NCBI GenBank assembly: GCA_030295235.1
Contig: AP026148.1
Span: forward strand, 558,001 to 622,000
Reading direction: 5' to 3'
Origin: Fistulifera solaris
Taxonomy: Eukaryota > Bacillariophyta > Bacillariophyceae > Naviculales > Stauroneidaceae
DNA length: 64,000 nt
Notes under the pieces: model-generated
Seen by the model: only the letters and a program-made list of their open reading frames with translations
The model's database searches: none
Told to the model about the DNA's origin: nothing
Translations under genes and position numbers: made by a program
Shown here: positions 1 through 23,578 of the stretch, piece after piece
How the letters are laid out: each line of letters begins with the position of its first letter
Position numbering within the stretch: position 1 is the first letter of the stretch

Positions 1-65
1 CAATCACTTGTCACCAAGTCGCTCTGGGAGCATGAAAGATAGTCTCGTTTGGTAGAAAGTCGCAT
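1..65 (-). CDS. HPAHW family C protein, 5' fragment (C0)
   Basis: Only the first 21 codons are inside the window; the gene continues left of base 1. The residues from MRLSTKRDYLSCSQSD onward match C1 (3642-4427) and C2 (7776-8555) exactly, and the start codon is the complement of 63-65. It shows that at least one more array unit lies outside the window. Confidence 0.85.
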   Translation of the reverse strand, partial: MRLSTKRDYLSCSQSDLVTSD

Positions 66-681
66 TTTGATTCAAAATAGATGAAACAACAAGGATTTTG
101 GTAATTGGGGTTGTTTTTGTGCGCTTTGCTGCTGCGCTGCTGCGGACCGATGGGCGGATGGACGGACGTATACGTGTACCACTAAGATATTGTAGTGGGA
201 TGCACGTCATTTGTTGGGTAGCGCTCCGATTTATTATGTACACTGTCTTGCAGAGTTAGTTAGTTAAAAGGAAGAAAAAAATACGCCGCACCGCAAATAA
301 TAATACACTCCCCAGCTAGACTAGGTCTAGACTAGTTGATGGGTACCTGTTAACGTTCCATTAAGAATGTCAATCTTGATATCGACATTTGCATTGTCAG
401 CAGCTTCGAAGTGCGAATGAATAGTTTCTAGCTTCTAAGGTAGTTTGTAGTCGAATGAATAGTCCGTTCACCGGAATGCCACTTGACCAATCCTATAGAG
501 TAAACGCAATGAATATACTATAGACTAATATTTTCAAAACAATTTCTAATTACTTGATATGATGTGGATGAAATTTAATGTCTTAAATGGATCGCAATGA
601 AAACGACAACGCAAATAACTACGACGATAACGATTGATTACAAAACACAACGCAGAGAGCAAACACAACGACTCCAGCTCG
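66..681 (-). promoter_or_regulatory. C0 upstream region and A1 downstream region
   Basis: Spacer between the divergent 5' end of C0 and the 3' end of A1. Bases 66-124 are the leader cassette: on the minus strand it reads GCGCACAAAAACAACCCC, then a TTACCAAAATCC block, then the palindrome ATTTTGAATCAAAAT (64-78) that runs into the ATG. A GC-rich CTG/CGG patch (125-165) follows. A short imperfect palindrome, CTAGACTAGGTCTAGACTAG, lies at 316-335. I see no gene in the rest. Confidence 0.6.
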
Positions 682-1449
682 TCACACTTCAACAGGATCA
701 TCTTGGATCAGTTCTTCGGCAATGGATGTATTGTATTTACGCGCATAAAATTCCAGGACGCCGTAATATTCTTCAAAGGACACGAAACCAGGTACCTTCA
801 TGTCGCGAGGAAGGGTTGGAAGGATTTCACGCACAAACGAACGAAAATGGGCTGGATGGACCAACTTGCCCTCGTGATTTGGATAGAACATCTCTTCCTC
901 TAGTGCATTTTCAATGCAGTGCTTGCTGTCTTCATACTGCTGCTCCTTTAGGCTCTTCTCCTTCTTGGTACTCTTGACGCCATACAAGGAACGCTTCTCG
1001 TCTTCCGTCAACGACTGATGGCTTTGAATGGGTACAACAGTCACATGCTGTGCGAAAGTGACACGACGAGTGGGAGGACTGAAAAAGTCGTCAAGAGCGG
1101 CGTCATAATCACAAGCGAAACACAACGCTTGTCGACCGGGGACCGCAGCAACGCCAGGGCAACCTTCCGCTGCCAGATAGTCATATTCCGGTGCTTCGGA
1201 CAGCAGCTCCTCACCACAAGGACGAGAATTATCAATATCCCAGACAATGATACGATTAGGATTGCGAGGGACACTTTCCGGAGCAGCAGCTTCACGGTCA
1301 AACGCTACGACATCATCTCCGGCGTCGTGGCGAGAACGGAATGCAGCCAACAGCTTGCGGAAAGGACGAATCGTTTGTCGACGCTTTTCCATTGTCTTCT
1401 GATGACTTTTGTTACGTCGAAGGTAGTTAAAACGGCAAGAAACTTTCAT
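682..1449 (-). CDS. HPAHW family A protein (A1)
   Basis: Intact 255-aa protein of unknown function. The N-terminus is very basic (residues 1-40, with RR, KRR and RKLL clusters) and could act in nuclear localisation or nucleic-acid binding. A Trp-Asp-Ile-Asp stretch sits near 70-73. The family core follows: RRVTF at 128-132, SLTEDEKRSLYG at 146-157, a basic/acidic helical stretch at 160-187, KLVHPAHF at 195-202, and a Tyr-rich tail (EEYYGVLEFYARKY) at 226-239. It has no signal peptide or membrane segment. The RRVTF motif resembles the RVxF docking site for protein phosphatase 1; that is inference. The family is known to me only as a diatom-style uncharacterised protein. The other-strand ORFs here are shadows. 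Confidence 0.85.
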   Translation of the reverse strand: MKVSCRFNYLRRNKSHQKTMEKRRQTIRPFRKLLAAFRSRHDAGDDVVAFDREAAAPESVPRNPNRIIVWDIDNSRPCGEELLSEAPEYDYLAAEGCPGVAAVPGRQALCFACDYDAALDDFFSPPTRRVTFAQHVTVVPIQSHQSLTEDEKRSLYGVKSTKKEKSLKEQQYEDSKHCIENALEEEMFYPNHEGKLVHPAHFRSFVREILPTLPRDMKVPGFVSFEEYYGVLEFYARKYNTSIAEELIQDDPVEV

Positions 1450-1808
1450 GTTTAGTTCAGAATTGATAAATCAATAAAGATATCGGTAAAATGGGGTGTT
1501 TTTTTTTTTGTGTGATTGAGAATAATAAGCATACGTTGCTGCTGCGGGCTGCGGAGTGTGGACTATGTCTTAGCGGTAACGATACTGAGAGATTATGTAT
1601 ACCAAGTCGAATGCAACAGGTTACGCTTTACCTGGTACAATAGCGCTACCTGGTATGTTCACACCAGAAAATAGGCAGTAATACGGAGTTCAATCAGCTT
1701 CTATTACTAGGCAAATAATAGGAAACAGAAACAAGCTGCAATAAGATGTCGCTTTGTAGCTATAACTGTTTTTAAGCTTGCTCTCACCAAGTTATACCAA
1801 GAATTTTT

Positions 1809-1952
1809 AAGCTTGCATTACCGTCGTTCTCAACGTACTTTTTAGATAAGGAGCGTGCGCCTACGTTTTCAAGACAACGTCGCCCACGCACAGCTACACA
1901 CTAGACAAGCTAAGAAGTCTCTCTTTACAAAATATCATCTACGATTACATCA
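1809..1952. repeat. Nested 145-bp direct repeat, copy 1
   Basis: Starts at AAGCTTGCATTACCGTCG and ends near CGATTACATCA. A nearly identical copy lies at 2047-2191, separated by 94 bp. Unit 2 has only one copy (about 6170-6313), so this is a local duplication specific to unit 1. Confidence 0.9.
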
Positions 1953-2046
1953 AAGCGAAATCAACTTTACAGCTTCAGTTCCTGGCTGATTGATAGACGA
2001 GCAGAAAGAAGCTGCATTTCAGTGCTTTGCGGCTATAAATGTCTCA

Positions 2047-2191
2047 AAGCTTGCATTTACCGTCGTCCTCAACGTACTTTTTAGATAAGGAGCGTGCGCC
2101 TACGTTTTCAAGACAACGTCGCCCACGCACAGCTACACACTAGACAAGCTAAGAAGTCTCTCTTTACAAAATATCATCTACGATTACATCA
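2047..2191. repeat. Nested 145-bp direct repeat, copy 2
   Basis: Second copy of the 1809-1952 repeat, followed by the same ATTATTTCTCATAAC sequence that follows the single copy in unit 2. Copy 2 is therefore in the ancestral position relative to the B gene, and the extra DNA is the stretch before it. Confidence 0.88.
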
Positions 2192-2295
2192 TTATTTCTC
2201 ATAACATCTAAAAAAGAGCAATTGAATCATCACAACACATAGAACGACGAACACTAGAGTAATACTATATGCAACAACAAAGCAACGCTTCTCTT

Positions 2296-3057
2296 TCATC
2301 GACCGGATGATACAAACGCACGATTTGGAAGGACATGATCATAGAAACGCTCGTATTTGAACAAATACTTCTTGTAAGCTTCTACCGACGAGAAACCAGG
2401 TGGTATGGATGTCGGGTCGACGTCAAGGCTGTCAACGATCTCATCCGTGAAAGCACTCCAGTGGGCTGGATGAACCAATTCGCCACAACGATTCCAAAAA
2501 TAGGCGTCTTCTTCCAACACAGTCTCGAGGCATTCATCGCCATACAGACTGCGTTCAAATTCAATCTCCTGACAAATGACATCGCACTCCGCTTGCAAGG
2601 TCTCGAGGTCACGATATAACGAACGCTTTTGCTCGGCTGTAAACAAACAATGATGGGGAATCTCTTTCACCGTCGCAAGATCCGAAGCAAATTGAACACG
2701 ACGAGGCACAGGATGACTGGACGGAGCAATCTTGAGCGAAGAGTGTAACGTCACCGAAGGAGTGCTCGTCTTTAATACTCCCTTTTGAGTCTTGTTCACC
2801 GTCAACAGCGGTTCTTCACGCAATACGGTAAGGGACAGAAGGAAAGAAGAGATTTCATCATCATTGTCGACATCGAAATCACGTGGAAGCAACGATTCCG
2901 CGACACCCGCGTCGCAATCAGAGAGACAGGGAACATCGTCAACATTTTCGGCTTGCAACGACCACAGACGGCTTGTCGGCCGCTGTCGCGTGTCGAAAAT
3001 TGTCTCCAAGGGACTCTTGGAGCATGAAAGGCGGTTTTGTTTGCTGTAAACTTGCAT
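2296..3057 (-). CDS. HPAHW family B protein (B1)
   Basis: Intact 253-aa protein of unknown function. Residues 1-118 are low-complexity, Ser- and Asp-rich, with an acidic patch DVDNDDE (62-68). The family core is RRVQF (119-123), KEIPHHCLFTAEQKRSLYRD (131-150), an amphipathic helix with two EIEFER-type turns (151-170), ELVHPAHW (193-200) and a Tyr-rich KKYLFKYERFYD tail. It begins with ATG directly after the TTTTGAATCAAAATG palindrome. Its first half matches B' (24187-24948), while its second half matches B2, indicating recombination between copies. Confidence 0.85.
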   Translation of the reverse strand: MQVYSKQNRLSCSKSPLETIFDTRQRPTSRLWSLQAENVDDVPCLSDCDAGVAESLLPRDFDVDNDDEISSFLLSLTVLREEPLLTVNKTQKGVLKTSTPSVTLHSSLKIAPSSHPVPRRVQFASDLATVKEIPHHCLFTAEQKRSLYRDLETLQAECDVICQEIEFERSLYGDECLETVLEEDAYFWNRCGELVHPAHWSAFTDEIVDSLDVDPTSIPPGFSSVEAYKKYLFKYERFYDHVLPNRAFVSSGR

Positions 3058-3641
3058 TTTGATTCAAAATAGATGAAACAATGAGGAATTTGGTAAAACG
3101 GGGTTGTTTTGTGCGCTAGAGTGAATACAGTAAAAGGCTTGCTGCGGACTGATCGACGGCTGACGGACCGACTAATTTTCTACGACTGCCCTGGTACAAA
3201 ATCGTGTAAGTAGCTCTCACGTAGAGCTTGTAGACTAACGTTTACTCACGAAGAAACGAGAGCGAGGAGCGAGGACGGATTAAAGCTTTGAAGAGCCTGA
3301 TTTCTTTTTGAAAGATCTCTGATAATTACGAAGTGATTTGAAAGCACAACGCGTATTGTGTGAAAAGTCACCTTGCGCTGCAAGCTTCAACAAAAGACGA
3401 CGATACAATACGATACAATACGGTACGATACACAACAACAAAGACGACGTTACCAAAAAAAACTAAGGAGAGGCAGTTCATAGCTATAAAACTGAATACG
3501 GAGTATTTTTTTTAAGAATCATCTACAATAATCACTACTTAACACTTGACATATAACAAGAGCGGTTGAATCATTTCAAATCGCTACTACGGGGAGCACA
3601 ATACAGGGAAAACGAGACAAAATACGCAGTCGAGAAAACGC
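3058..3641 (-). promoter_or_regulatory. B1 upstream / C1 downstream spacer
   Basis: The leader cassette is at 3058-3116 and the palindrome at 3056-3070. A simple repeat of CGATACAATA-type decamers lies at 3401-3432 and varies between copies of the unit. The 9-mer TACGGAGTA is at 3497-3505. No gene is seen. Confidence 0.55.
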
Positions 3642-4427
3642 TTACGAATCAAGGGATCGAGGATGGAAGACTCTTTTCCGCATGGCGTTGTCAAAGTATT
3701 GCTCATACTTGGACAACTCATCACTTTGCTTGTACTCGTTCAGTGAGGAAAAGCCAACGACGGGAGTATCGAGGGGAAGACTTGGAAGAATTTCATTCAC
3801 ATACACGAGCCAGTGTGCTGGATGGACTAACTCTCCAAGATGGTTGCGGAAGAAACACCCTTCTTCCAGCGCATCAGCGGCGCCGCAAAGACGTAAACGA
3901 CGCTCAAACCTGATCACCAGGCAAATTTCATCCTTCTCTGCCTGCAACGCACGCTTGTCGCGATACAACGAACGCTTTTCCTCGGCCGTCAACGAATTAT
4001 GATGGGGAATCTCCTTGACAGTGTAGAAACCGGGCACAAATTGTACACGGCGAGACGCACGATGATTTTCAAGAAAAGAACTGCTTGAAGAGCCACGAGA
4101 CGAAGTGACATTCAACGAAAGCAGCGCCTGAACAGTGCTCTGTGCCCACGCGGCGTTCTCGTTCTCGCAAATCCACGACTGCATCTCTTCACGCGATTCC
4201 GCAAACGAAAGAATGAACGACATCTCGTTATCAGGAATCAATTCACAAGGAACGGAATCGGAGAGGAAGGGGACATCATCATCATTGTCGTCTCGAAAGT
4301 CGACAGGTGATCGAAGAGAAGCGAACAACGACTGAACAGGGCCTTCCGTGCGCTGCCGCTTGCAATCACTTGTCACCAAGTCGCTCTGGGAGCATGAAAG
4401 ATAGTCTCGTTTGGTAGAAAGTCGCAT
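3642..4427 (-). CDS. HPAHW family C protein (C1)
   Basis: Intact 261-aa protein of unknown function. It has a Ser/Asp-rich N-terminal half with an acidic DDNDDD run (46-51), a Ser-rich patch RGSSSSSF (111-118), then the core RRVQF (126-130), SLTAEEKRSLYRD (145-157), a charged helix to about 178, GELVHPAHW (198-206) and a Tyr-rich tail. The C-terminus ends HPRSLDS. In C2 and C' one extra G near the 3' end changes the last residues to HPSIP, so the tail is not under tight constraint. Confidence 0.85.
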   Translation of the reverse strand: MRLSTKRDYLSCSQSDLVTSDCKRQRTEGPVQSLFASLRSPVDFRDDNDDDVPFLSDSVPCELIPDNEMSFILSFAESREEMQSWICENENAAWAQSTVQALLSLNVTSSRGSSSSSFLENHRASRRVQFVPGFYTVKEIPHHNSLTAEEKRSLYRDKRALQAEKDEICLVIRFERRLRLCGAADALEEGCFFRNHLGELVHPAHWLVYVNEILPSLPLDTPVVGFSSLNEYKQSDELSKYEQYFDNAMRKRVFHPRSLDS

Positions 4428-5042
4428 TTTGATTCAAAATAGATGAAACAACAAGGATTTTGGTAATTGGGGTTGTTTTTGTGCGCTTTGCTGCTGCGCT
4501 GCTGCGGACCGATGGGCGGATGGACGGACGTATACGTGTACCACTAAGATATTGTAGTGGGATGCACGTCATTTGTTGGGTAGCGCTCCGATTTATTATG
4601 TACACTGTCTTGCAGAGTTAGTTAGTTAAAAGGAAGAAAAAATACGCCGCACCGCAAATAATAATACACTCCCCAGCTAGACTAGGTCTAGACTAGTTGA
4701 TGGGTACCTGTTAACGTTCCATTAAGAATGTCAATCTTGATATCGACATTTGCATTGTCAGCAGCTTCGAAGTGCGAATGAATAGTTTCTAGCTTCTAAG
4801 GTAGTTTGTAGTCGAATGAATAGTCCGTTCACCGGAATGCCACTTGACCAATCCTATAGAGTAAACGCAATGAATATACTATAGACTAATATTTTCAAAA
4901 CAATTTCTAATTACTTGATATGATGTGGATGAAATTTAATGTCTTAAATGGATCGCAATGAAAACGACAACGCAAATAACTACGACGATAACGATTGATT
5001 ACAAAACACAACGCAGAGAGCAAACACAACGACTCCAGCTCG
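4428..5042 (-). promoter_or_regulatory. C1 upstream / A2 downstream spacer
   Basis: Second copy of the 66-681 spacer, with the leader cassette at 4428-4486 and the palindrome at 4426-4440. It carries the same CTG-rich patch and CTAGACTAG-type palindrome. No gene is seen. Confidence 0.55.
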
Positions 5043-5810
5043 TCACACTTCAACAGGATCATCTTGGATCAGTTCTTCGGCAATGGATGTATTGTATTTA
5101 CGCGCATAAAATTCCAGGACGCCGTAATATTCTTCAAAGGACACGAAACCAGGTACCTTCATGTCGCGAGGAAGGGTTGGAAGGACTTCACGCACAAACG
5201 AACGAAAATGGGCTGGATGGACCAACTTGCCCTCGTGATTTGGATAGAACATCTCTTCCTCTAGTGCATTTTCAATGCAGTGCTTGCTGTCTTCATATTG
5301 CTGCTCCTTTAGGCTCTTCTCCTTCTTGGTACTCTTGACGCCATACAAGGAACGCTTCTCGTCTTCCGTCAACGACTGATGGCTTTGAATGGGTACAACA
5401 GTCACATGCTGTGCGAAAGTGACACGACGAGTGGGAGGACTGAAAAAGTCGTCAAGAGCGGCGTCATAATCACAAGCGAAACACAACGCTTGTCGACCGG
5501 GGACCGCAGCAACGCCAGGGCAACCTTCCGCTGCCAGATAGTCATATTCCGGTGCTTCGGACAGCAGCTCCCCACCACGAGGACGAGAATTATCAATATC
5601 CCAGACAATGATACGATAAGGATTGCGAGGGACACTTTCCGGAGCAGCAGCTTCACGGTCAAACGATACAACATCATCTCCGGCGTCGTGGCGAGAACGG
5701 AATGCAGCCAACAGCTTGCGGAAAGGACGAATCGTTTGTCGACGCTTTTCCATTGTCTTCTGATGACTTTTGGGACGTCGAAGGTAGTTAAAACGGCAAG
5801 AAACTTTCAT
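5043..5810 (-). CDS. HPAHW family A protein (A2)
   Basis: Intact 255-aa copy of A1. The frame is open upstream to 5915, but the ATG at 5810 is used because it sits at the same position after the leader cassette as in A1 and A3. Differences include RRPKSHQ (N to P), VVSFDRE, RNPYRI, SRPRGGE and REVLPT. The Tyr in RNPYRI is shared with the inverted A' copy and not with A1 or A3. The core motifs RRVTF, LTEDEKRSLYG and LVHPAHF are unchanged. Confidence 0.85.
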   Translation of the reverse strand: MKVSCRFNYLRRPKSHQKTMEKRRQTIRPFRKLLAAFRSRHDAGDDVVSFDREAAAPESVPRNPYRIIVWDIDNSRPRGGELLSEAPEYDYLAAEGCPGVAAVPGRQALCFACDYDAALDDFFSPPTRRVTFAQHVTVVPIQSHQSLTEDEKRSLYGVKSTKKEKSLKEQQYEDSKHCIENALEEEMFYPNHEGKLVHPAHFRSFVREVLPTLPRDMKVPGFVSFEEYYGVLEFYARKYNTSIAEELIQDDPVEV

Positions 5811-6418
5811 GATTGGTGCAGAATTGATGAAACAATAAAGATATCGGTAAAATGGGGTGTTTTTTTGTGTGAGAATAATAAAGCATACCAGGTACGTTGC
5901 TGCTGCGGGCTGCAAAGTGTGGACTATGTCTTAGTGGTAACGATACTGAGAGATTATGTATACCAAGTCGAATGCAACAGGTTACGCTTTACCTGGTACA
6001 ATAGCGCTACCTGGTATGTTCACACCAGAAAATAGGCAGTAATACGGAGTTCAATCAGCTTCTATTACTAGGCAAATAATAGGAAACAGAAACAAGCTGC
6101 AATAAGATGTTGCTTTGTAGCTATAACTGTTTTTAAGCTTGCTCTCACCAAGTTATACCAAGAATTTTTAAGCTTGCATTACCGTCGTCCTCAACGTACT
6201 TTTTTAGATAAGGAGCGTGCGCCTACGTTTTCAAGACAACGTCGCCCACGCACAGCTACACACTAGACAAGCTAAGAAGTCTCTCTTTACAAAATATCAT
6301 CTACGATTACATCATTATTTCTCATAACATCTAAAAAAGAGCAATTGAATCATCACAACACATAGAACGACGAACACTAGAGTAATACTATATGCAACAA
6401 CAAAGCAACGCTTCTCTT
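5811..6418 (-). promoter_or_regulatory. A2 upstream / B2 downstream spacer
   Basis: A-type leader cassette at 5811-5872. TACCWGGTA palindromes occur at 5886-5894, 5990-5998 and 6008-6016; the first of these is absent from unit 1. One copy of the 145-bp element lies at about 6170-6313. No gene is seen. Confidence 0.55.
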
Positions 6419-7180
6419 TCATCGACCGGATGATACAAACGCACGATTTGGAAGGACATGATCATAGAAACGCTCGTATTTGAACAAATACTTCTTGTAA
6501 GCTTCTACCGACGAGAAACCAGGTGGTATGGATGTCGGGTCGACGTCAAGGCTGTCAACGATCTCATCCGTGAAAGCACTCCAGTGGGCTGGATGAACCA
6601 ATTCGCCACAACGATTCCAAAAATAGGCGTCTTCTTCCAACACAGTCTCGAGGCATTCATCGCCATACAGACTGCGTTCAAATTCAATCTCCTGACAAAT
6701 GACATCGCACTCCGCTTGCAAGGTCTCGAGGTCACGATATAACGAACGCTTTTGCTCGGCTGTAAACAAACAATGATGGGGAATCTCTTTCACCGTCGTA
6801 AGATCCGAAGCAAATCGAACACGACGAGGCACAGGATGACTGGATGGAGCAATCTTGCGCGAAGAGTGTAACGTCACCGAAGGAGTGCTCGTCTTTAATA
6901 CTCCCTTTTGAGTCTTGTTCACCGTCAACAGCGGTTCTTCACGCAATACGGTAAGGGACAGAAGGAAAGAAGAGATTTCATCATCATTGTCGACATCGAA
7001 ATCACGTGGAAGCAACGATTCCGCGACACCCGCGTCGCAATCAGTGAGACAGGGAACATCGTCAACATTTTCGGCTTGCAACGACCACAGAGGGCTTGTC
7101 AGTCGCTGTAGCGTGTCGAAAATCGTCTCCGAGGGACTCTTGGAGCATGAAAGGTGGTTTTGTTTGCTGTAAACTTGCAT
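6419..7180 (-). CDS. HPAHW family B protein (B2)
   Basis: Intact 253-aa copy of B. The N-terminal segment (NHLSC, SPSETIFDTLQRLTSPLW) matches the dispersed B'' at 51567-52328, whereas from about residue 128 onward (TVKEIPHHCLF, AECDVI, AYFWNRC) it is the same as B1. Core motifs are RRVRF (119-123), TAEQKRSLYRD and GELVHPAHW. The mosaic fits gene conversion with another locus. Confidence 0.85.
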   Translation of the reverse strand: MQVYSKQNHLSCSKSPSETIFDTLQRLTSPLWSLQAENVDDVPCLTDCDAGVAESLLPRDFDVDNDDEISSFLLSLTVLREEPLLTVNKTQKGVLKTSTPSVTLHSSRKIAPSSHPVPRRVRFASDLTTVKEIPHHCLFTAEQKRSLYRDLETLQAECDVICQEIEFERSLYGDECLETVLEEDAYFWNRCGELVHPAHWSAFTDEIVDSLDVDPTSIPPGFSSVEAYKKYLFKYERFYDHVLPNRAFVSSGR

Positions 7181-7775
7181 TTTGATTCAAAATAGATGAA
7201 ACAATGAGGAATTTGGTAAAACGGGGTTGTTTTGTGCGCTAGAGTGAATACAGTAAAAGGCTTGCTGCGGACTGATCGACGGCTGACGGACCGACTAATT
7301 TTCTACGACTGCCCTGGTACAAAATCGTGTAAGTAGCTCTCACGTAGAGCTTGTAGACTAACGTTTACTCACGAAGAAACGAGAGCGAGGAGCGAGGACG
7401 GATTAAAGCTTTGAAGAGCCTGATTTCTTTTTGAAAGATCTCTGATAATTACGAAGTGATTTGAAAGCACAACGCGTATTGTGTGAAAAGTCACCTTGCG
7501 CTGCAAGCTTCAACAAAAGACGACGATACAATACGATACGATACCATACCTTACGATACACAACAACAAAGACGACGTTACCAAGAAAACTAAGGAGAGG
7601 CAGTTCATAGCTATAAAACTGAATACGGAGTATTTTTTTTAAGAATCATCTACAATAATCACTACTTAAAACTTGACATATAACAAGAGCGGTTGAATCG
7701 TTTCAAATCGCTACTACGGGGAGCACAATACAGGGAAAACGAGACAAAATACGCAGTCGAGAAAACGCTTACGAA
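7181..7775 (-). promoter_or_regulatory. B2 upstream / C2 downstream spacer
   Basis: Leader cassette at 7181-7239, a CGATACAATA/CGATACCATA simple repeat near 7523-7556 that differs in sequence from unit 1, and TACGGAGTA at 7624-7632. No gene is seen. Confidence 0.55.
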
Positions 7776-8555
7776 TCAAGGGATCGAGGGATGGAAGACT
7801 CTTTTCCGCATGGCGTTGTCAAAGTATTGCTCATACTTGGACAACTCATCACTTTGCTTGTACTCGTTCAGTGAGGAAAAGCCAACGACGGGAGTATCGA
7901 GGGGAAGACTTGGAAGAATTTCATTCACATACACGAGCCAGTGTGCTGGATGGACTAACTCTCCAAGATGGTTGCGGAAGAAACACCCTTCTTCCAGCGC
8001 ATCAGCGGCGCCGCAAAGACGTAAACGACGCTCAAACCTGATCTCCAGGCAGATCTCATCCTTCTCTGCCTGCAACGCACGCTTGTCGCGATACAACGAA
8101 CGCTTTTCCTCGGCCGTCAACGAATTATGATGGGGAATCTCCTTGACAGTGTAGAAACCGGGCACAAATTGTACACGGCGAGACGCACGATGATTTTCAA
8201 GAAAAGAACTGCTTGAAGAGCCACGAGACGAAGTGACATTCAACGAAAGCAGCGCCTGAACAGTGCTCTGTGCCCACGCGGCGTTCTCGTTCTCGCAAAT
8301 CCACGACTGCATCTCTTCACGCGATTCCGCAAACGAAAGAATGAACGACATCTCGTTATCAGGAATCAATTCACAAGGAACGGAATCGGAGAGGAAGGGG
8401 ACATCATCATCATTGTCGTCTCGAAAGTCGACAGGTGATCGAAGAGAAGCGAACAACGACTGAACAGGGCCTTCCGTGCGCTGCCGCTTGCAATCACTTG
8501 TCACCAAGTCGCTCTGGGAGCATGAAAGATAGTCTCGTTTGGTAGAAAGTCGCAT
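7776..8555 (-). CDS. HPAHW family C protein (C2)
   Basis: Intact 259-aa copy of C1. It has EIRFERR where C1 has VIRFERR, and ends HPSIP because of one additional G close to the stop. The same ending occurs in the inverted C' copy. All core motifs are kept. Confidence 0.85.
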   Translation of the reverse strand: MRLSTKRDYLSCSQSDLVTSDCKRQRTEGPVQSLFASLRSPVDFRDDNDDDVPFLSDSVPCELIPDNEMSFILSFAESREEMQSWICENENAAWAQSTVQALLSLNVTSSRGSSSSSFLENHRASRRVQFVPGFYTVKEIPHHNSLTAEEKRSLYRDKRALQAEKDEICLEIRFERRLRLCGAADALEEGCFFRNHLGELVHPAHWLVYVNEILPSLPLDTPVVGFSSLNEYKQSDELSKYEQYFDNAMRKRVFHPSIP

Positions 8556-9173
8556 TTTGATTCAAAATAGATGAAACAACAAGGATTTTGGTAATTGGGG
8601 TTGTTTTTGTGCGCTTTGCTGCTGCGCTGCTGCGGACCGATGGGCGGATGGACGGACGTATACGTGTACCACTAAGATATTGTAGTGGGATGCACGTCAT
8701 TTGTTGGGTAGCGCTCCGATTTATTATGTACACTGTCTTGCAGAGTTAGTTAGTTAAAAGGAAGAAAAAAATACGCCGCACCGCAAATAATAATACACTC
8801 CCCAGCTAGACTAGGTCTCTAGACTAGTTGATGGGTCCCTGTTAACGTTCCATTAAGAATGTCAATCTTGATATCGACATTTGCATTGTCAGCAGCTTCG
8901 AAGTGCGAATGAATAGTTTCTAGCTTCTAAGGTAGTTTGTAGTCGAATGAATAGTCCGTTCACCGGAATGCCACTTGACCAATCCTATAGAGTAAACGCA
9001 ATGAATATACTATAGACTAATATTTTCAAAACAATTTCTAATTACTTGATATGATGTGGATGAAATTTAATGTCTTAAATGGATCGCAATGAAAACGACA
9101 ACGCAAATAACTACGACGATAACGATTGATTACAAAACACAACGCAGAGAGCAAACACAACGACTCCAGCTCG
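8556..9173 (-). promoter_or_regulatory. C2 upstream / A3 downstream spacer
   Basis: Third copy of this spacer; leader cassette at 8556-8614 and palindrome at 8554-8568. The CTAGACTAG-type palindrome near 8807-8830 has a 2-bp CT insertion compared with units 1 and 2. No gene is seen. Confidence 0.55.
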
Positions 9174-9941
9174 TCACACTTCAACGGGATCATCTTGGAT
9201 CAGTTCTTCGGCAATGGATGTATTGTATTTACGCGCATAAAATTCCAGGACGCCGTAATATTCTTCAAAGGACACGTAACCAGGTACCTTCATGTCGCGA
9301 GGAAGGGTTGGAAGGACTTCACGCACAAACGAACGAAAATGGGCTGGATGGACCAACTTGCCCTCGTGATTTGGATAGAACATCTCTTCCTCTAGTGCAT
9401 TTTCAATGCAGTGCTTGCTGTCTTCATACTGCTGCTCCTTTAGGCTCTTCTCCTTCTTGGTACTCTTGACGCCATACAAGGAACGCTTCTCGTCTTCCGT
9501 CAACGACTGATGGCTTTGAATGGGTACAACAGTCACATGCTGTGCGAAAGTGACACGACGAGTGGGAGGACTGAAAAAGTCGTCAAGAGCGGCGTCATAA
9601 TCACAAGCGAAACACAACGCTTGTCGACCGGGGACCGCAGCAACGCCAGGGCAACCTTCCGCTGCCAGATAGTCATATTCCGGTGCTTCGGACAGCAGCT
9701 CCTCACCACAAGGACGAGAATTATCAATATCCCAGACAATGATACGATTAGGATTGCGAGGGACACTTTCCGGAGCAGCAGCTTCACGGTCAAACGCTAC
9801 GACATCATCTCCGGCGTCGTGGCGAGAACGGAATGCAGCCAACAGCTTGCGGAAAGGACGAATCGTTTGTCGACGCTTTTCCATTGTCTTCTGATGACTT
9901 TTGGGACGTCGAAGATAGCTAAAACGGCAAGAAACTTTCAT
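9174..9941 (-). CDS. HPAHW family A protein (A3)
   Basis: Intact 255-aa copy, the first transcribed member of the array. It has RFSYLRRPKSHQ, RNPNRI, SRPCGEE, REVLPT and GYVSFEEYYG; otherwise it is like A1 and A2. Its upstream side faces the transporter gene at 10265, so the 323 bp between them must carry divergent promoters. Confidence 0.85.
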   Translation of the reverse strand: MKVSCRFSYLRRPKSHQKTMEKRRQTIRPFRKLLAAFRSRHDAGDDVVAFDREAAAPESVPRNPNRIIVWDIDNSRPCGEELLSEAPEYDYLAAEGCPGVAAVPGRQALCFACDYDAALDDFFSPPTRRVTFAQHVTVVPIQSHQSLTEDEKRSLYGVKSTKKEKSLKEQQYEDSKHCIENALEEEMFYPNHEGKLVHPAHFRSFVREVLPTLPRDMKVPGYVSFEEYYGVLEFYARKYNTSIAEELIQDDPVEV

Positions 9942-10264
9942 GTTTGGTTCAGAATTGATGAATCAATAAAGATATCGGTAAATTGGGGTGTTTTTGTGCG
10001 AGAGTGCGGAAATCGAGGCGCTACTGCGGATTGCGGATGGACTGACGGTCGACGTCGCATTCGTAACTCAATTGAGTCAGTCACTTTTTTCGGATTTAGT
10101 CTTTATAGGAAGAGTAGGACGAAGCAACGCGAACTCCAGACATACACGGTTCTCCGAGCGTGCGAAGAAACAACAAACAGCAACAATTCTCATTTTTGAC
10201 ATTCTTTCTTTCCTTCTTTCGCCTTCATCGGCCACAATTGAGACAATTCATAGCAAATTCAACA
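9942..10264. promoter_or_regulatory. Divergent promoter region A3 / transporter
   Basis: The A-type leader cassette occupies 9942-10000 (minus strand). From about 10003 the sequence is unlike the other A upstream regions and marks the array edge. The last 60 bases before 10265 are pyrimidine-rich, then AACAATG around the transporter start. No other gene is seen. Confidence 0.5.
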
Positions 10265-21416: not shown

Positions 21417-22183
21417 ATGAAAGTTTCTTGCCGTTTTAACTACCTTCGACGTAACAAAAGTCATCAGAAGACAATGGAAAAGCGTCGACAAACGATTCGT
21501 CCTTTCCGCAAGCTGTTGGCTGCATTCCGTTCTCGCCACGACGCCGAAGATGATGTCGTAGCGTTTGACCGTGAAGCTGCTGCTCCGGAAAGTGTCCCTC
21601 GCAATCCTTATCGTATCATTGTCTGGGATATTGATAATTCTCGTCCTTGTGGTGAGGAGCTGCTGTCCGAAGCACCGGAATATGACTATCTGGCAGCGGA
21701 AGGTTGCCCTGGCGTTGCTGCGGTCCCCGGTCGACAAGCGTTGTGTTTCGCTTGTGATTATGACGCCGCTCTTGACGACTTTTTCAGTCCTCCCACTCGT
21801 CGTGTCACTTTCGCACAGCATGTGACTGTTGTACCCATTCAAAGCCATCAGTCGTTGACGGAAGACGAGAAGCGTTTTTGTATGGCGTCAAGAGTACCAA
21901 GAAGGAGAAGAGCCTAAAGGAGCAGCAGTATGAAGACAGCAAGCACTGCATTGAAAATGCACTAGAGGAAGAGATGTTCTATCCAAATCACGAGGGCAAG
22001 TTGGTCCATCCAGCCCATTTTCGTTCGTTTGTGCGTGAAATCCTTCCAACCCTTCCTCGCGACATGAAGGTACCTGGTTTCTTGTCCTTTGAAGAATATT
22101 ACGGCGTCCTGGAATTTTATGCGCGTAAATACAATACATCCATTGCCGAAGAACTGATCCAAGATGATCCTGTTGAAGTGTGA
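21417..22183 (+). pseudogene. HPAHW family A protein, frameshifted copy (A')
   Basis: Copy of the 255-aa A protein broken near 21875. The array copies have CGTTCCTTGTATGG here and A' has CGTTTTTGTATGG, a one-base loss with an additional substitution. This moves SLYGVKSTKKEKS out of frame and gives a 166-aa product that keeps RRVTF but loses LVHPAHF. The remaining reading frame (21878-22183) is otherwise intact to the normal end. It shares RRNKSHQ and REILPT with A1 but RNPYRI with A2. A recent lesion or a consensus error both fit; the extra substitution slightly favours a real lesion. Confidence 0.65.
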
Positions 22184-22798: not shown

Positions 22799-23578
22799 AT
22801 GCGACTTTCTACCAAACGAGACTATCTTTCATGCTCCCAGAGCGACTTGGTGACAAGTGATTGCAAGCGGCAGCGCACGGAAGGCCCTGTTCAGTCGTTG
22901 TTCGCTTCTCTTCGATCACCTGTCGACTTTCGAGACGACAATGATGATGATGTCCCCTTCCTCTCCGATTCCGTTCCTTGTGAATCGATTCCTGATAACG
23001 AGATGTCGTTCATTCTTTCGTTTGCGGAATCGCGTGAAGAGATGCAGTCGTGGATTTGCGAGAACGAGAACGCCGCGTGGGCACAGAGCACTGTTCAGGC
23101 GCTGCTTTCGTTGAATGTCACTTCGTCTCGTGGCTCTTCAAGCAGTTCTTTTCTTGAAAATCATCGTGCGTCTCGCCGTGTACAATTTGTGCCTGGTTTC
23201 TACACTGTCAAGGAGATTCCCCATCATAATTCGTTGACGGCCGAGGAAAAGCGTTCGTTGTATCGCGACAAGCGTGCGTTGCAGGCAGAGAAGGATGAGA
23301 TCTGCCTGGAGATCAGGTTTGAGCGTCGTTTACGTCTTTGCGGCGCCGCTGATGCGCTGGAAGAAGGGTGTTTCTTCCGCAACCATCTTGGAGAGTTGGT
23401 CCATCCAGCACACTGGCTCGTGTATGTGAATGAAATTCTTCCAAGTCTTCCCCTCGATACTCCCGTCGTTGGCTTTTCCTCACTGAACGAGTACAAACAA
23501 AGTGATGAGTTGTCCAAGTATGAGCAATACTTTGACAACGCCATGCGGAAAAGAGTCTTCCATCCCTCGATCCCTTGA
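22799..23578 (+). CDS. HPAHW family C protein, inverted copy (C')
   Basis: Intact 259-aa protein. It differs from C2 mainly at SVPCESIPDNE (Leu to Ser). RRVQF, SLTAEEKRSLYRD and GELVHPAHW are kept and it ends HPSIP. Like C1 and C2 it lacks the roughly 9-residue block present in C'' at 52917-53726. Confidence 0.85.
   Translation: MRLSTKRDYLSCSQSDLVTSDCKRQRTEGPVQSLFASLRSPVDFRDDNDDDVPFLSDSVPCESIPDNEMSFILSFAESREEMQSWICENENAAWAQSTVQALLSLNVTSSRGSSSSSFLENHRASRRVQFVPGFYTVKEIPHHNSLTAEEKRSLYRDKRALQAEKDEICLEIRFERRLRLCGAADALEEGCFFRNHLGELVHPAHWLVYVNEILPSLPLDTPVVGFSSLNEYKQSDELSKYEQYFDNAMRKRVFHPSIP

Follow-up and report, generated by a model that had tools for sequence, protein, structure and literature searches.

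A three-gene tandem array in the diatom Fistulifera solaris with opposite fates on two homoeologous contigs and a putative protein phosphatase 1 docking motif

How does a set of three related genes come to be repeated in fixed order, and what could the encoded proteins do? The question is raised by a 64,000-nucleotide stretch of the Fistulifera solaris genome (assembly GCA_030295235.1, contig AP026148.1, positions 558,001 to 622,000; hereafter the window, on the contig that we call C26), which opens with a tandem array of three genes, A, B and C. The explanation that we find best accounts jointly for the locus, at a probability of roughly 0.4, combines an array produced by duplication, conversion and opposite fates on two homoeologs with proteins that are putative adaptors of protein phosphatase 1 (PP1).

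Within the first 10 kilobases (kb) of the window lie seven complete genes on the minus strand, transcribed in the order A C B A C B A, and after them, at the window edge, the first 65 bases of a further C. The whole array is B-C-A repeated three times along the plus strand, head-to-tail, from C26:555,592 to about 568,000 (near window position 10,000), with its left edge about 2.4 kb beyond the window start and a gene A at its right end. Its genes in the window are as follows (lengths in amino acids, aa):

1..65, minus strand: partial gene C, N-terminal end, leftmost unit; the remainder of this C and one B precede the window, at C26:555.9-558.0k
682..1449, minus strand: gene A, leftmost unit, 255 aa
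2296..3057, minus strand: gene B, middle unit, 253 aa
3642..4427, minus strand: gene C, middle unit, 261 aa
5043..5810, minus strand: gene A, middle unit, 255 aa
6419..7180, minus strand: gene B, right unit, 253 aa
7776..8555, minus strand: gene C, right unit, 259 aa
9174..9941, minus strand: gene A, right unit, 255 aa, closing the array on the right

A sequence-only reading of the window had described a tandem A-C-B array with open reading frames (ORFs) of about 253-261 aa, and we find frames of these sizes in that fixed order. The repeat units that it counted are real, except that the partial unit reported on the left reflects only the edge of the window; the array consists of exactly three full units. 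ORFs are intact in all nine array genes. The units are 98.8-99.1% identical in pairwise comparison and are spaced 4.1-4.4 kb apart; in one of them 239 bases are duplicated internally, at about window 1.8-2.2 kb, which makes it longer.

Searching parts of C26 and of a second contig, C25, with A, B and C by tblastn yielded 36 places (17 on C25 and 19 on C26), counted by hand with split rows joined; C25 was covered in pieces, and copies between pieces could be missed. Five A/B/C loci have identical order and orientation on the two contigs:

Locus 1: C26:508.7-512.5k and C25:574-588k
Locus 2 (the window array): C26:555.6-568k and C25:649-652.7k
Locus 3: C26:579.4-583k and C25:667.9-677.5k
Locus 4: C26:609.5-611.8k and C25:704.6-706.3k
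Locus 5: C26:623.2-625.4k and C25:720.7-722.7k

Non-family flanks are 82-90% identical between C25 and C26; nine of ten rows are collinear at 81.5-89.6% and one is a cross-match between loci 4 and 5. The flanks match on both sides at loci 2-5 and on one side at locus 1, where the other C25 side is an insertion. Because collinear matching flanks are found at five loci, C25 and C26 behave, at the level of sequence, as homoeologs. The genome comprises 51.7 Mb, and other family members also lie on the apparent contig pairs C1/C2, C5/C6, C11/C12, C17/C18 and C23/C24.

Full-length open copies make up 26 of the 36 places (11 on C25, 15 on C26). By gene, C26 has three A, six B and six C, versus four, one and six on C25. 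Among the ten broken copies the defects are frameshifts, truncation, a splitting insertion and the lack of an in-frame start; all ten lie outside the array. At locus 2, C26 carries three intact units, whereas the single C25 unit has frameshifts in B and A and an open C. At locus 1 it is C25 that is amplified, with three C-A pairs that lack B (A open in all three, C in two), and the single C26 unit has frameshifts in C and A and an open B. At these two loci, copies are amplified on one homoeolog while those on the other decay. The genes had been said to be amplified as a set, and in the array A, B and C are indeed amplified together; the amplified C25 unit lacks B, however, which shows that amplification does not always extend to the entire set. 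We also observed direct repeats of 220 bases, 98% identical, at C25:574143-574362 and C25:580283-580500. They bound an insertion of about 6 kb that splits a C gene near codon 41 and looks like a retrotransposon with long terminal repeats.

Loci 3 and 4 account for further family members within the window that had gone unreported, at about 21.4-24.9 kb (a frameshifted A, a C and a B) and 51.6-53.7 kb (a B and a C):

21417..22180, plus strand: frameshifted A of locus 3, with the same lesion as the locus 1 A (C26:511.6k)
22799..23578, plus strand: gene C of locus 3, 259 aa
24187..24948, plus strand: gene B of locus 3, 253 aa
51567..52328, minus strand: gene B of locus 4, 253 aa
52917..53726, minus strand: gene C of locus 4, 269 aa

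Being collinear, the loci should predate the split of the homoeologs. The C26 loci are 91-97% alike, versus about 81-90% against their syntenic C25 partners (among the matches listed, which include none for locus 5). Synonymous divergence (dS) of gene C is 0.017-0.047 between C26 loci 2 and 3, versus 0.206-0.238 for the syntenic C25-C26 pairs of loci 2-5. As expected under concerted evolution, paralogues on the same chromosome resemble one another more than they resemble their syntenic counterparts. Between C25 loci the dS of gene C is 0.13-0.31, which indicates that C25 is less homogenised than C26. Additionally, a one-base loss together with a substitution at the EKRS codon is common to the A copies of C26 loci 1 and 3. 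This lesion is absent from the three array A copies in between and from the C25 A at loci 2 and 3, while the C25 locus 1 A is open, though unmatched by the lesion search string. Since these two C26 loci lie 68 kb apart, the common frameshift suggests that copies within C26 have probably been homogenised, the broken stretch having most likely spread by conversion.

Frameshifts occur at the same EKRS codon in two genes, with a base lost in A (C26:512.06k and C26:579.88k) and a base gained in C (C26:509.29k), a coincidence that is probably due to chance. We considered a programmed frameshift at this codon and rejected it, since the A and C lesions are of different kinds and the majority of copies are open.

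How B was lost from the amplified C25 unit is suggested by the upstream regions. An alignment of 17 of these revealed a leader of roughly 60 bases, upstream of the ATG, that is common to A, B and C, with one C25 B retaining only its last part. The pattern CRCAAAAACAMCCCMATTTACCRA, allowed up to three mismatches, occurs at 16 places genome-wide, of which 15 precede A or C genes in the C25/C26 cluster and one is on C17; its reversed control occurs nowhere in the genome, and the B leaders are too divergent for the pattern. Within the array it is found at:

98..121, minus strand: shared 5' leader before C, 1 mismatch
1483..1506, minus strand: shared 5' leader before A, 3 mismatches
4460..4483, minus strand: shared 5' leader before C, 1 mismatch
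5844..5867, minus strand: shared 5' leader before A, 2 mismatches
8588..8611, minus strand: shared 5' leader before C, 1 mismatch
9975..9998, minus strand: shared 5' leader before A, 0 mismatches

The A genes of the C25 array are preceded by a B-type upstream region. Upstream DNA of the first matches that of the C26 B genes at 83% over 1,189 columns and stops matching about 15 bases before the ATG; for the third, the match is split into a block of 858 columns at 89% and one of 195 columns at 84%. Compared with the C26 A upstream region, the match consists of the last 55-60 bases and the coding DNA, plus one 71% stretch of 167 columns. The presence of a B upstream region on these A genes suggests that B was probably lost on C25 by recombination at the shared leader, and it raises the possibility that the C25 array A copies may be under B-type control. 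In the simplest reading, one unit would first have lost the DNA between its B leader and its A leader, and the resulting two-gene unit would then have been amplified. On C26, recent tandem duplication at locus 2 would have generated the array, and gene conversion would homogenise copies along the chromosome; we infer unequal exchange and gene conversion as the underlying processes. The array is thus of an ordinary kind, tandem duplication plus conversion, in an unusual setting of opposite homoeolog fates, an upstream swap and a shared lesion.

The second half of the question concerns the proteins. On sequence grounds A, B and C belong to a larger family of this genome, in which they form rapidly changing branches. 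Query B finds at least 75 genome places at an expectation value (E) of 10 or less and a distant member finds at least 59, B included, both counts being lower bounds. Similar sequences are probably common in diatoms. That the three genes are ancient paralogues, as had been proposed, agrees with their divergence: A is 29-34% identical to B and C, and B about 43% identical to C. In a tree of 47 rows, A adjoins the C11/C12 pair and B joins C (94/90), a join flagged as potentially spurious; the C25 and C26 copies group apart both for A and for B, and the C25 C copies do not all fall together. RRVxF and LVHPAH, two of the motifs previously noted, are invariant in seven aligned proteins, and the third is better written T-x-x-K-R-S-L-Y, since B reads TAEQKRSLY. 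The analysis of the wider family used 26 representatives (six of them A, B or C) and 14 subfamily rows, all chosen by hand; the member C18_208 is among the 26 and not among the 14. With single-position exceptions among the 26, the core has a constant order: an RVxF-type motif, a hydrophobic V..IP stretch, a K/R..[YW] helix, an acidic EE(D) and G...HP[AV]H. Invariant residues across the 14 rows are F in RVxF, I in the IP stretch, and G, H and P.

Neither A, B and C nor nine wider members score over the curated cut-off of any Pfam model. One sequence search of the PDB gave four matches at E 0.94-1.2 that we judged to be chance and another gave none, and a Foldseek search with a poor model returned eight matches, the best at E 2.7, with nothing convincing. 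Outside this genome, no relatives were confirmed among 39 stretches of viral contigs or 79 stretches of prokaryote genomes. Some members of the family differ in form from A, B and C. A dense zone of short, often interrupted members occupies C17:234-292k and C18:164-217k, another apparent contig pair. Longer members, about 310-640 aa in size, have hydrophobic stretches N-terminal to RRVRF...HPAHW and are found at C18:816.5k, 820.8k and 825.0k, at C35:724.7k and on C21, C22 and C7, the three on C18 being very similar tandem copies spaced about 4.2 kb apart.

The RVxF-type motif points to PP1. Using the consensus [RK]x0-1[VI]{P}[FW] (PMC4794898; PMC10731240), we found the motif at the homologous site in 22 of the 26 representatives, or 23 with L allowed. 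It is present in 28 of 29 A/B/C frames, and the remaining frame starts beyond it. In the leftmost array A it is encoded at:

1054..1068, minus strand: RRVTF codons (proposed PP1-docking motif), computed from residue 128

Among the 14 subfamily rows, F never changes, the preceding hydrophobic position is V (11 rows) or I (3 rows) and nothing else, an R stands two places before it in 12, and x is free. Change from V to I only, with a free x, fits what is expected of a docking motif. Behind F, at varying distance, follow a V position (V or F in the 14 rows) and the invariant I. A phosphatase that could be bound appears to be present as well: STPPase_N is found at six genome places, and the two that were read are PP1-like, ending in LMCSF, a stretch of PP1 that we take to be part of the RVxF-binding groove. 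Our best guess is therefore a PP1-docking protein with a variable N-terminus, its binding inferred from sequence only; a structural role for the motif is about as likely.

Several observations weigh against docking. The loose RVxF consensus is reported to occur by chance in about 25% of proteins (PMC4794898). Because the members are homologous, conservation of RVxF is not independent evidence and would equally fit a structural strand. Three of the 26 representatives lack RVxF even in its widest form: C18_208 has lost the segment, and the C5_220/C6_192 pair reads PHVRF. No Pfam or PDB match to any PP1 partner was obtained, and two AlphaFold models built from an 11-row alignment were both poor, with mean predicted local distance difference test (pLDDT) values of 47.9 and 55.4.

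The strongest competing explanation, which we regard as about equally probable, is that the region from RVxF to HPAH forms one small lineage-specific domain in which RVxF is an internal strand and whose partner is something other than PP1, for example a nuclear or chromatin protein. Equally conserved columns, I, G, H and P besides F, span the whole core as they would in a folded domain; helices are predicted directly after RVxF; and the C5/C6:192-220k pair keeps the rest of the core without the motif. The substitution pattern at the motif, however, fits docking, and both models render the RVxF segment as coil at pLDDT below 50, weak as these models are.

It is unlikely that the family is simply decaying under drift, with chance duplication and conversion and little function left. 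The ten broken copies, the C25 C copy split by the 6 kb insertion and a ratio of nonsynonymous to synonymous divergence (dN/dS) that reaches 1.0 among array copies would agree with such decay. The array copies, with dS of 0.006-0.029 and dN/dS of 0.2-1.0, are too young to be informative, and for the same reason their intact ORFs say little about selection and do not support it in the way that the sequence-only reading had argued. Selection shows instead in the older C25-C26 pairs, where dN/dS is 0.23-0.55, well below 1, and where the core falls to 0.17-0.33. The 26 full-length open copies, with the array open at nine of nine, likewise speak against drift. The units themselves are very improbable as an assembly artefact: although they are about 99% identical, they differ by substitutions and by the 239-base internal duplication, and unique DNA on either side is collinear with C25.

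A variable N-terminus ahead of a conserved remainder had also been suggested, and the N-terminal half does change faster than the core. For A, B and C, respectively, dN/dS is 0.81, 0.55 and 0.40 in the N-terminal half, 0.17, 0.33 and 0.21 in the core and 0.58, 0.47 and 0.17 in the C-terminal part, as pooled over all C25-by-C26 pairs, which are hence non-independent. With one pair per gene (C25 locus 3 with C26 locus 2 for A, syntenic pairs for B and C), the contrast between N-terminus and core reaches significance for the three genes combined (p = 0.011) but for none of them singly (p = 0.08 for A, 0.45 for B and 0.25 for C).

In the surroundings of the array, the nearest gene on the right encodes a formate/nitrite transporter. 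On the strand opposite the array genes, we interpreted ORFs of 106-229 aa as mirror ORFs, and scans of the window for tRNAs and for Rfam families at gathering score found none. Beside the array, at C26:545.4-551.6k, lies another repeated gene family with ORFs of 377 and 480 aa and repeats 73-79% identical; its 480-aa protein had no Pfam match at E<=0.001.

The A, B and C proteins thus belong to a family without a Pfam model, for which we propose a role. Under PP1 docking, the RVxF core would hold the phosphatase and the hydrophobic stretch behind it would extend the contact. The C-terminal half would give family specificity, the fast-changing N-terminal half would carry the target or input, and the copy number of A, B and C would set the adaptor dose. 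More speculatively, and doubtful as a whole, these genes could represent a class of regulatory PP1 subunits in diatoms that combines an unchanging docking core, from RVxF to HPAH, with fast-evolving N-terminal tails and whose dosage was rebalanced after genome merging by opposite amplification and decay while conversion spread working and broken copies alike. If the docking guess is true, a family without a Pfam model gains a biochemical role as PP1 adaptors, and the cluster would serve as a natural experiment on adaptor dosage. Should docking prove wrong, the opposite fates at matching loci, the common lesion and the upstream swap would still provide a clear case for studying how duplicated gene sets are sorted out once two parental genomes have come together in one nucleus.

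Our literature search found no paper joining diatom, RVxF and protein phosphatase 1 and none joining diatom and HPAHW, and we know of no counterpart to the HPAH part. Comparison with known systems places the proposal as follows. PNUTS of Leishmania is a protein of 264 aa without a recognised domain that holds PP1 through a central RVxF (PMC10731240). A, B and C, at 253-269 aa, resemble it in size, in the central position of RVxF and in having no recognised domain; PP1 binding has been measured for PNUTS, whereas it is predicted for A, B and C, which are not known to be related to PNUTS in sequence. One RVxF consensus is based on the RRVSFA peptide crystallised with PP1 (PMC4794898). The RVxF proteins of the Plasmodium motif screen follow the same consensus as the family described here, in which RRVSF (C11/C12) and RRVTF, RRVQF and RRVRF (A, B and C) resemble RRVSFA, although the Plasmodium candidates were assayed by ELISA or two-hybrid (PMC4794898). 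The genomic setting agrees with F. solaris as an allopolyploid diatom whose genome is built of homoeologous pairs, as described in a paper on the expression bias of gene pairs (PMC5935921). Finally, Seminavis robusta has tandem-enriched, largely species-specific gene families in which tandem duplicates are less constrained (PMC7335047). The array shares with them the tandem expansion of a diatom family and the lower constraint on duplicates; unlike those families, it moves three paralogues as a unit, at loci common to two homoeologs.

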